From positions 1 through 64,000 of the forward strand of contig WRBJ01000004.1 in assembly GCA_009784615.1 (NCBI GenBank): DNA of 64,000 nucleotides, written 5' to 3'. The DNA comes from Defluviitaleaceae bacterium (GTDB lineage Bacteria; Bacillota; Clostridia; Lachnospirales; WRAX01). Below, in pieces: positions 1 through 50,821 of this stretch. The position numbers and the translations under genes were made by a program. The notes under the pieces are model-generated. The model ran no database searches, had not been told where the DNA came from, and saw nothing but the letters and a program-made list of their open reading frames with translations. Within the stretch, counting starts at the first letter, position 1. Every line of letters begins with the position of its first letter.

Positions 1-113
1 AAGAAAACAGCTTGTCGGGGTGGGATTTCCCTAACAAAGCAATCCACCACGACAAGCCTCTCTCAGCCCTAAGACCTAAGTGTAGGATAACACACTTCAG
101 GTCTATTTGTCAA
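1..113 (-). ncRNA. Copy A of a repeated small-RNA-like element: promoter, dyad and terminator-like hairpin, read leftward; may continue off the window edge
   Basis: Minus strand: TTGACA (108-113), 17-18 nt spacer, TTATCC/TATCCT; imperfect dyad AGACCTAAGTGT..ACACTT(C)AGGTCT (72-104); hairpin 10-57 GCTTGTCGTGGTGGATT-GCTTTGTTAGGGA-AATCCCACCCCGACAAGC followed by TGTTTTCTT. Closely similar to 50542-50661. Confidence 0.65.
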
Positions 114-150
114 GCATATTATTATCAGTCTTAGCAGGCTGATTTTTTAT

Positions 151-1794
151 TTATCGTTGTGTACGGCTGAATATGCCTTCGCTGTCTATTGTGCCAAAGG
201 TTTCGTTGTTGTCGGTGAAGGTTAGGTTATAGCCGTCGAAGGTTAGTTGCCTTGTGTTAAGTTCTTCGTCTAATCCGAACAAAAAGCCGTTTTCAAAGCC
301 TTCATTAGTTACATCGCCGTGCATTATTGGGAAAATTTGTTGGAAGTGAAAGCGGCGTTGTAGGCTTAGCAAATGACCGTGTATTGCCCAGTCTACCCTT
401 GTTTGGCTTGTAATGCGTGGGTTTATTGACGAGCTGTTGTAGTTCCATTGCACGCCAAAAAGCCAAATATTGTCTTCGGGGATTATGCCCAGTTGGCTGG
501 ACTGCTCTACCAAATTACCTACTATTATATTATCGTATTTATCAATAAATTTAAGGCTTTGCACCTCTAGGACGAAGCCGAAGAAAAATATTAGGGTTGC
601 GGCGAAAGTTATGACGGTTTTAATAATTTTGATTTTGATAAAGCGTGAGGCAATCTCTGCAAAAATTGCCATACCTATGACGGCGTAGAAAAAGTTTCTC
701 ACCCAAATCCAAGAATCTGACAGTAGAAAGAAGATTGAAAAGGTGCTTGCGGTAAGGATAAATGCCGCCAATAGCGATAGCAATACATTTTTCTTTTCGA
801 TGGGCTTTTCTGATTTTTTGTCGAAAAAGATAAAAGTGGCGAGGATTAGCGAGAAGATGACGATTAGCACTGCAACGAAGGTGTGGCTACTAAAAAGGTC
901 GCTAATGCCCCAGCGTAGCGAGTTTGCTATGGTTGGACCTTGTTCGCGCACAAAGGTTGCGCCTATGCGTAAAAATACGGTTTGCACTTGAGCAAAAAAA
1001 CCGCTGTCTGGAGTTTCTGCACGCATGCCAAACCAGCCTACATTGCGGAAGATGTAGTAATGCACGCCGATGATTGCGGTGTTTAAAATTGGCCAAACGA
1101 ATAGCAATTTGTTTGTGATGGTTCTGCGGTGCAGTATTAGTACGCCCATTGATAGCACGAAGGAAAAGACTATGCCTTGCTCGTAGTAGCCTTGTGCTAA
1201 AATGCCGCACACCATTGCAACGCCAAACCAAACCCAATACCTTCCTTCTTTATAGATGAATTTTAGAATGGCGTATACGGCGAGTATTGCAAAAAATGCC
1301 GCAATTACAATGCGGGATGAGGCGGAAATCCAATAGGCAGATTCTGTTAGCGTTGGGTAGAAAGAGAAGAATATGACGGCGATTTTGCCCCATATGATTT
1401 TACTGCGGTCGAAGATTTTACCGAGCAATACAATGCTTATGAAGTGCATTATTACTATGGCTAGCAATACCCATTCGATATTGCCCCATAGGCGTGATAT
1501 GATGTAAACGTCGGTAATGCCAGCCAACGGGCGGTAGCCGAAGATGTTGAAGGGCACGATTACGTTTTGCCACAAATCCTCAGCCCATATAGAATAAACG
1601 CCGTATTGGTTGTAGTCGTCGGAAAAAAGGAAGTATCTAAACCCAAATGGGAAGTTTTTTACAAGCATAGCCACAAAAAGTACGGCGTAAAAAGCTATGT
1701 CGTTTTTGAAAAACCAAATAACTCTTTCTTTTAAAATGTTCATTTTTTGCCCTCGTTTCTCTTTAGTATGCAGTAAATATATCATTTTGCGCAT
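151..1794 (-). CDS. Polytopic membrane protein, glycosyltransferase-like, unknown function
   Basis: 547-aa ORF with many hydrophobic segments. Confidence 0.7.
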   Translation of the reverse strand: MRKMIYLLHTKEKRGQKMNILKERVIWFFKNDIAFYAVLFVAMLVKNFPFGFRYFLFSDDYNQYGVYSIWAEDLWQNVIVPFNIFGYRPLAGITDVYIISRLWGNIEWVLLAIVIMHFISIVLLGKIFDRSKIIWGKIAVIFFSFYPTLTESAYWISASSRIVIAAFFAILAVYAILKFIYKEGRYWVWFGVAMVCGILAQGYYEQGIVFSFVLSMGVLILHRRTITNKLLFVWPILNTAIIGVHYYIFRNVGWFGMRAETPDSGFFAQVQTVFLRIGATFVREQGPTIANSLRWGISDLFSSHTFVAVLIVIFSLILATFIFFDKKSEKPIEKKNVLLSLLAAFILTASTFSIFFLLSDSWIWVRNFFYAVIGMAIFAEIASRFIKIKIIKTVITFAATLIFFFGFVLEVQSLKFIDKYDNIIVGNLVEQSSQLGIIPEDNIWLFGVQWNYNSSSINPRITSQTRVDWAIHGHLLSLQRRFHFQQIFPIMHGDVTNEGFENGFLFGLDEELNTRQLTFDGYNLTFTDNNETFGTIDSEGIFSRTQR

Positions 1795-45654: not shown

Positions 45655-46523
45655 TGGAATATATTGTAAAAGCCGAGCAGTTGGTGTATGAATATTCGCC
45701 ACCTACCAGTGACGATGAAAAAGCCGAATCTCAAGCCCCAATACTTGCGTTAAACGGTATTGATATTAACATTAAAAAAGGTGAATTTTTAGCCATTTTA
45801 GGGCATAATGGTTCGGGAAAGTCCACCTTTGCAAAGCATATTAATTGTTTGTTGCAACCCACATCGGGGACGATGTGGGTTAATGGCATTTCTACAGCAA
45901 ACGAGGATATGGTTTGGGAGATTAGACAATCTGTCGGTATGGTGTTTCAAAATCCTGATAATCAGATAATTGCAACTATTGTAGAGGAAGATGTTGCATT
46001 TGGTCCCGAAAATTTGGGCGTGCCGCCTGCTGAAATTCGCAAACGTGTTGACGAGGCTTTAGCAACTGTTGGAATGACTGAGTTTGCAGGTAATCCACCC
46101 CATCATCTTTCTGGCGGACAAAAGCAACGTGTGGCTATTGCGGGCATACTTGCAATGCGACCCGACATTATTGTGCTTGACGAAGCAACGGCAATGCTTG
46201 ACCCTAATGGGCGCAAAGAGGTTATGAAGGTTGCGAAACAGCTTAACACGGACGAAGGTATTACCATTGTATTTATAACACATTATATGGATGAAGCGGC
46301 GCAGGCGGATAGGATTATTGTTGTGTCTGACGGCAAAATTGCGATGGAAGGTTTACCAAGCGAAGTTTTTTCTCGTATAACCGAACTTAAAAAGATTGGG
46401 CTTGATGTGCCTCAGGCGGCAGAGATTGCATATAAATTGCGTGCAAAAGGCGTTAATTTGCCAAAAAGCATAGTAACAGGCGAACATTTAGTAGAGGAAT
46501 TGGTAAAATGTCGATTGAGCTAA
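45654..46523 (+). CDS. ecfA1: ECF transporter ATPase A1
   Basis: [32 protein letters not shown]. Confidence 0.93.
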
Positions 46524-47359
46524 AAGATGTGTGTCATACGTATTCAAAGGGTTCGACCTTTGCGAAAAATGCATTGAATAATATAAATTTAACAATAGAA
46601 AGCGGCGATTTTGTCGGGCTTATCGGACATACTGGTTCTGGCAAATCTACATTGGTGCAACATTTAAATGCGCTTTTAAAACCACATAGCGGGCATATTT
46701 TTATTGATGGTGAAGATATTAATGCTGACAAATCCCGCCTTAAAGCCATTCGTAGCAAAGTTGGCTTGGTTTTCCAATATCCAGAACATCAATTGTTTGA
46801 TATGACTGTCTATAAAGATGTATCGTTTGGACCTAAAAATGCAGGTCTTAGCGGGGAAGAAATTAAAGAACGTGTAGAATCTGCACTTACAATGGTTGGA
46901 ATAATGCCCGATATGTATGAAAAATCACCTTTCGAGCTATCTGGTGGACAAAAACGTCGTGTGGCTATTGCGGGCGTACTTGCAATGCGCCCAGAGGTGC
47001 TGGTGCTTGACGAGCCTGCCGCAGGGCTTGACCCACGTGGACGTGATGAAATATTAAATCAAGTAAAAAAAATGCACGAGGGACTTCAAATTACAGTAAT
47101 TTTAGTATCGCACAGTATGGAAGATATTGCACGCCTAGTAAACCGTATTTTGGTTATAAACAAGGGCGAAATTGTGTTAAGTGGCACGCCGACAGAAATT
47201 TTTGCACAAATTGAACAGCTTGAGGCGATTGGGCTGTCCACAACGCAATCTGCTTACATCGCAAGAGATTTGCGCAATAAAGGTTTCAACTTGCCAGAGA
47301 ATATTTTCACCGTGGACGTTGTGGTTGATGCTGTATTGAGTGAATTGCAAGCGAGGTAA
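46508..47359 (+). CDS. ecfA2: ECF transporter ATPase A2
   Basis: [53 protein letters not shown]. Confidence 0.93.
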
Positions 47360-50518: not shown

Positions 50519-50541
50519 ATTTTGGTATTTTAATTAACTGC

Positions 50542-50661
50542 TTGACAAATAGACCTAAGTGTGGTAACATCTACTTAGGTTCGTGAGGACTTAGAAGTTT
50601 GCTTGTCGTGGTGGAACGCTTTGTTAGGGGGTTCATTACCACGACAAGCATTTTCTTCTTT
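50542..50661 (+). ncRNA. Copy B of the repeated small-RNA-like element (promoter to terminator)
   Basis: TTGACA (50542-50547)-17-TAACAT (50565-50570); dyad ACCTAAGT-N12-ACTTAGGT (50553-50580); hairpin 50601-50649 GCTTGTCGTGGT..ACCACGACAAGC then ATTTTCTTCTTT. Confidence 0.75.
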
Positions 50662-50821
50662 CCGTTCTGCTCCCTTCGGGTCGAGCATAATCATAATACA
50701 CCATTTAGCGAATTTTGTCAAGGGCTTTTTTATTTTGCTGTATATTGTTACTATATTTAAAAGTTTTTATCAAAAAAGCAATAGCACTATGCTATTGCTT
50801 TTTGTGTTTAAAACCTATGTC

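Follow-up and report, generated by a model that had tools for sequence, protein, structure and literature searches.

Two copies of a repeated element

The DNA analysed here, a stretch of 64,000 nt referred to as the window, contains two copies of a repeated element: copy A at the left edge on the minus strand, and the complete copy B on the plus strand (Table 1). They share a common start, as the initial annotation had stated; the window contains exactly two occurrences of TGCTTGACAAATAGACCT, at 99-116 (minus strand) and 50539-50556 (plus strand), for a chance expectation of 0.07 matches at up to three mismatches. The reverse complement of positions 1-116 also agrees with the sequence given there, the dyad of copy A contains one bulge as claimed, and the neighbouring gene (~151-1743, minus strand) is membrane-protein-like when judged by eye. 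The stretch folds far better than shuffled sequences (z = -4.8, 0/200 shuffles as good).

The element does not end at position 113, where it had been delimited; this is contradicted by complete copies, which extend ~75 bp further, as far as a second promoter in the opposite orientation. Contig C4 begins at window position 1, and its first 123 bases are identical to the start of contig C13, which means that the assembly broke within the repeat. The right part of copy A, including the second promoter, is missing because the window edge is the contig end. The greater length of the element, its second promoter and the role of the hairpin tip as its fast-diverging part could not have been seen in the initial annotation. 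In the source genome (G000), the starts of contigs C4, C13, C14, C16, and C38 fall within copies. Since several contigs end in this way, the assembly conceals more copies and right halves.

Table 1. Features of the two copies in the 64,000-nt window. P_L and P_R, promoters of the module; R1, covariance model of the module.
Feature	Position	Strand	Evidence
Copy A, left part of module	1-116	-	sequence; R1 match, E = 5.0e-15
Copy A, P_L -35 (TTGACA)	108-113	-	sequence; consensus match only
Copy A, P_L -10 (TATCCT), spacer 18	84-89	-	sequence; placed by alignment with other copies
Copy A, dyad arm within promoter spacer	92-104	.	sequence; dyad statistics
Copy A, dyad arm 3′ of -10	72-83	.	sequence; dyad statistics
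Copy A, RNA hairpin 5′ arm	44-57	-	fold; covariation; strand bias
Copy A, variable tip ATTGCTTTGTTAGGGAAAT	25-43	-	tip search; also at C13:25-43
Copy A, RNA hairpin 3′ arm	10-24	-	fold
Copy A, T-rich tract 3′ of hairpin, cut at contig end	1-9	-	sequence; family statistic
Terminator-like hairpin and T-run beside copy A	124-148	+	sequence
Copy B, complete module	50539-50725	+	sequence; R1 match, E = 7.9e-19
Copy B, P_L: TTGACA 50542-50547, 17 nt, TAACAT 50565-50570	50542-50570	+	sequence
Copy B, dyad: arms 50551-50560 and 50573-50582	50551-50582	.	sequence; dyad statistics
Copy B, RNA hairpin: arms 50601-50614 and 50639-50649; tip 50615-50634	50601-50649	+	
Copy B, T-rich tract	50650-50661	+	sequence
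Copy B, P_R: -35 TTGACA 50721-50716, 17 nt, -10 TATTAT 50698-50693	50693-50721	-	

Anatomy of the complete module

Complete copies measure ~190 bp and contain two convergent near-consensus promoters, P_L and P_R, which denote promoter consensus matches rather than mapped transcription starts. With TGCTTGAC placed at the left, P_L consists of TTGACA, a spacer of 17-18 nt, and a -10 element. It overlaps the dyad, with the left arm in the spacer and the right arm downstream of the -10. After a short linker comes a hairpin of ~13 bp in the stem and ~20-21 nt in the tip, and then a T-rich tract in 90/115 copies (versus 36% of control windows). The predicted P_L RNA is ~74 nt long (65-83) and ends in the hairpin. 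P_R occupies the right end and is directed leftwards, back through the module and often into a small gene, commonly an AbrB-like one. It deviates from the consensus at a mean of 0.8 of 12 positions (3.5 on the control strand), and has three mismatches or fewer in 112/114 copies, as opposed to 34 on the control strand. In copy B, P_R faces P_L, and the copy has neither a linked gene nor an outward terminator-like hairpin.

Copy number and distribution

The element had been described as repeated, and copy counts with R1 gave 23 copies in the source genome, for which genome-wide statements rest on searches and selected stretches; the first 18 bases of copy A occur there 21 times at up to two mismatches. 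R1 matched 9 of 16 family genomes (77, 23, 11, 11, 9, 8, 1, 1, and 1 copies), numbers that are minima given the incomplete assemblies; L107 may be a misplaced contig. With stricter filters, no match was found in ~130 other genomes of the order. A scan of a collection with a DNA pattern returned matches mainly in MAGs named Defluviitaleaceae bacterium (G013, G011, and G015), which we take to be of termite-gut origin. Rfam searches with the window and four member loci (the loci at E up to 0.5) yielded nothing at gathering score on the module, and a literature search of titles and abstracts found no description of this module family, which is apparently undescribed.

A link to phages was considered for the lone match on a viral contig (L147), which lies in a phage-like region with no adjacent AbrB-type gene and was taken as chance. 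The pattern matches L142 and L144 were likewise taken as chance from taxonomy.

In the source genome, a second dispersed repeat of MITE-like appearance (CGTCATTGCGAGG ... GAAGCAATCC) adjoins many module copies, namely in the flanks of L001, L005, L007, L009, L011, L012, L013, L016, L018, and L020. It is absent from the 64,000-nt window.

Hairpin and dyad are constrained differently

Structured RNA tolerates G-U pairs solely on the transcribed strand. Counted on the P_L strand, the outer pairs of the hairpin comprise 125 G-U versus 6 A-C combinations. The hairpin is more stable as a P_L-strand fold in 106/115 copies, and double changes were detected at 12 of the 13 predicted stem pairs. Together these observations indicate that the P_L transcript is the structured RNA; judging from the strand bias, the hairpin is selected in this RNA.

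For the dyad, pair counts over 117 copies revealed no strand bias (17 G-U versus 19 A-C). Its arms covary: in 91% of diverged pairs from the same 117 copies, arms taken from one copy pair better than arms swapped between copies. The initial annotation had preferred a DNA operator to an RNA hairpin at this position, and the covarying arms, the lack of strand bias, and the location of the left arm in the P_L spacer bear this out. The dyad is probably a DNA palindrome acting as operator for a putative DNA-binding protein. Its fold energy slightly favors the P_L strand (75 versus 32).

Genes linked to the module

Using a script, we detected a nearby ORF with a Shine-Dalgarno-like sequence on the P_R-transcribed side in 71 of 122 copies; a few of these ORFs may be due to chance. 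The linked ORFs start mostly 20-56 nt past the P_L side and are oriented outwards, which would make the module the leader of their transcripts from P_R. Many encode AbrB-family proteins, single or tandem, with starts ~35-55 bp from the module, and all seven complete tandem-AbrB genes found in the source genome adjoin a module copy. The four AbrB-like proteins submitted scored 33.6-47.3 bits against TIGR01439 (cut-off 28.3), and many linked proteins exceed the curated cut-offs of AbrB/MazE-type models (TIGR01439, PF04014). In Pfam and NCBIfam scans, the AbrB-like representatives matched AbrB, MazE, MraZ, and SpoVT models, with no match to a SymE model. The AbrB genes beside many copies may supply the linked regulator that the initial annotation suggested looking for, but other copies precede unrelated genes. 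These encode (i) small proteins without Pfam hits; (ii) proteins with a copper-amine-oxidase N-terminal domain; and (iii) Cys-rich proteins.

Proteins of 60-81 aa are encoded directly behind modules in G013 (L064, L066, L217, L219, L223, L224, L227, and L228); those scanned had no Pfam hit. At ~10 copies of the source genome, copy A included, an outward terminator-like hairpin replaces the gene when judged by eye (six by script pattern). The hairpin and T-run beside copy A, which stand where its gene would be, would end RNA arriving from P_R. At L056 (G011:C8, from ~1046), a module beside an AbrB gene has its dyad seemingly interrupted by a palindromic insertion of ~110 bp (TACCAATTCC ... GGAATTGGTA).

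Hairpin tips diverge between paralogues

Nine within-genome pairs, not independent of one another, are at least 97% identical over promoter, dyad, linker, and lower stem, and their tips agree at only 43-68% of positions, compared with a shuffled baseline of 48%. The four-fold sites of the linked genes are much closer: (i) L090/L094, 21/21 identical, tip 50%; (ii) L064/L079, 21/21 identical, tip 57%; (iii) L090/L091, 91%, tip 54%; and (iv) L081/L095, 94%, tip 64%. The tip is nearly random between paralogues whose four-fold sites are 90-100% identical. Over 54 pairs, positional identity is 0.93-1.00 in the stem, drops to 0.26-0.61 across the tip, and returns to 0.85-1.00 beyond it. Some more distant pairs have closer tips (L073/L087, 0.88; L087/L088, 0.87). 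Two contig-end pairs, A with C13 and C16 with C38, have identical tips, so that the separation of paralogues is not absolute.

The tip centre carries a loose motif, ~TYTKYNRRG (5.3 bits versus 3.8 in shuffles). Two further candidates were rejected: the YUNR loop motif was not enriched (52 versus 50.7 expected), and inversion of the loop between the stem arms, plausible by eye in a few loops, gave a mean reversed-loop identity no higher than the shuffled baseline.

Hairpin tips are conserved in two pairs of orthologues

The modules L222 (G013) and L233 (G011) share a neighbouring gene, PurL-like from our reading of its sequence, whose products are 81% identical over 1229 aa with four-fold sites at 42%. 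Of 20 tip positions, 17 are the same in both. The outer left neighbour is also common, yet the gene directly behind the module differs. With outer neighbours and module orthologous and the inner gene different, one coding sequence was apparently replaced, from its start codon onwards, beside a module that remained in place.

A second orthologous pair, L216/L240, is partly syntenic and has similar tips (0.74). The common gene (72% over 298 aa), which reads as DAHP-synthase-like, is accompanied by one gene inserted in one of the genomes. L213/L239 were rejected as orthologues; distant left neighbours are common, but stems, tips, and adjacent genes differ, pointing to different units. Although two orthologous pairs are a small number, the direction of change is opposite to that of drift, tips having diverged between paralogues and been kept between orthologues.

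A cis-antisense reading and its rivals

The layout of the convergent promoters and the strand of the hairpin would be compatible with a putative antisense RNA opposite a protein's mRNA, of the kind found in type I toxin-antitoxin systems. We give a probability of roughly 0.5 to complete copies being cis-antisense regulatory modules with locus-specific recognition tips. In such a module, transcription from P_R would produce the mRNA for the gene past P_L, its leader spanning the entire module. P_L, opposing P_R and overlapping the putative protein-binding dyad, would yield the hairpin RNA of ~74 nt as an exact complement of part of that leader. Pairing of this RNA with the mRNA would lower expression, perhaps assisted by polymerase collision. 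The hairpin tip would make the first contact, and its divergence among paralogues would let each RNA recognise its own leader. The likely binder of the dyad in AbrB-linked copies would be the AbrB protein, and copies A and B, with no obvious target gene in the expected place, may be stand-alone or decayed versions. Transcription, pairing, repression, and AbrB binding are steps that we infer; sequence statistics support both promoters, selection of the hairpin on the RNA strand, dyad symmetry, tip divergence between paralogues and, in two pairs, tip conservation between orthologues.

A search of the genome with the tips of copies A and B found only the own locus (for A also its twin) and one match with three mismatches, no more than in the reversed-pattern control; this fits action in cis. 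Several observations count against the cis-antisense reading: copies A and B without an obvious target, the identical tips of the contig-end pairs, the small number of orthologue pairs, and the common loose motif in the tip centre, which would lower specificity. More tentatively, the tip might be an address tag, with selection keeping paralogue tips different and orthologue tips alike, and with each locus silenced mainly by its own RNA.

It is unlikely that the module is an ordinary 5′ regulatory region made up of promoter, operator, and a hairpin (of terminator or leader type) with an unconstrained, drifting loop, perhaps in a mutation-prone cruciform or subject to conversion between copies. 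Terminator loops are usually unconstrained, and the frequent T-rich tract would suit such a hairpin. However, the tip has a centred motif and, in most closely related paralogue pairs, has changed more than the linked genes' four-fold sites. Were the loop drifting or prone to mutation, divergence would be expected in paralogues and orthologues alike, yet orthologue tips are conserved despite saturated four-fold sites.

We attach still lower probability to P_L RNAs acting in trans as small RNAs, the tip of each reaching a different distant mRNA. Variable tips on a constant scaffold and copies such as A and B, with no gene in the expected place, would be expected of such RNAs. Against this, the search with the tips of A and B, through which short seeds would escape, found no genome matches above its control, and the layout of P_R and antisense RNA is kept in nearly all copies.

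An attenuator or riboswitch in the P_R leader RNA, formed by dyad and hairpin and with P_L incidental, is improbable. Both elements lie ahead of the gene, and transcription from P_R would cover the whole module, but the G-U excess and the greater stability place the hairpin on the P_L strand, and the dyad lacks a strand bias in its pair counts and, by fold energy, leans slightly to P_L.

The least probable reading is a passive MITE incidentally carrying promoters, an option raised in the initial annotation as a small MITE with promoter and terminator: despite the high, lineage-specific copy number and CTTGACA in inverted orientation at both ends, the inverted ends are two -35 boxes, unit borders in G013 track the stop codon of the gene and the outer edge of P_R, the hairpin is under RNA-level constraint, and two exact convergent promoters are kept. 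The ends of copy A that had been called weakly inverted-repeat-like correspond to the P_L -35 region at one end and the RNA hairpin's 3′ arm at the other rather than to transposon termini. Inspection of selected flanks by eye revealed no target-site duplications. No empty site was obtained, the truA locus of a same-genus genome (G001) being non-syntenic downstream and uninformative.

Comparison with known systems

In Escherichia coli, SymE is a LexA-controlled toxin of the AbrB superfamily; the 5′ end of its mRNA is complementary to the cis-encoded small RNA SymR, whose promoter lies within the symE ORF (PMC1891008). The module resembles this system as described there in pairing an AbrB-type gene with a predicted cis antisense RNA to the mRNA leader. 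Unlike the described arrangement, P_L lies outside the ORF and has its own dyad; further differences are that the linked proteins match classical AbrB models and not the SymE family, that copies number in the dozens, and that many linked genes are not AbrB genes. AbrB/MazE-type DNA-binding proteins (TIGR01439, PF04014) occur here in tandem and single forms with a module in front. As the linked AbrB proteins lack a SymE match and toxicity is only hypothetical, we do not file the module as a type I toxin-antitoxin system.

The type I systems Ibs/Sib and Ldr/Rdl occur on the chromosome as repeats, each with an antisense RNA encoded in cis; the overlap of Rdl is with a long 5′ leader and spares the start codon, and Sib RNAs use target recognition domains (reviewed in PMC4147584). 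The module is likewise a repeated chromosomal unit with a predicted cis antisense RNA, in up to 77 copies compared with the five Sib and four Rdl RNAs given in that review (PMC4147584). It differs in having convergent promoters with a dyad operator and in linked genes that are not, as a class, small hydrophobic toxins. Copy control of plasmid pMV158 combines the CopG repressor with a short antisense RNA, RNAII, acting on one message, according to the account in PMC4485353. The module would work in a similar way, but it is chromosomal, present at many loci, and lacks a replication gene.

If the cis-antisense reading is right, a lineage-specific, highly amplified regulatory module stands ahead of genes for small proteins that are AbrB-like, secreted, or unknown. 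In plasmid copy-control systems, compatibility can depend on the recognition loops. If the tip were an address tag, the modules would parallel plasmid incompatibility groups, but on the chromosome and at a scale that we have not found described, with the further twist that the linked gene would be exchangeable while the module stays (L222/L233). They would also form a naturally occurring collection of antisense RNAs that share one scaffold and differ mainly in the recognition tip, and their evolution could reveal the rules by which antisense RNAs achieve specificity or cross-talk. Even on a weaker reading, a tip that outpaces synonymous sites in paralogues and is kept in orthologues needs explanation.

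Elsewhere in the window, a 107-nt direct repeat (46107-46213 and 46937-47043, 78% identical) lies upstream of an EcfT-like gene, perhaps reflecting two related transporter ATPase genes.
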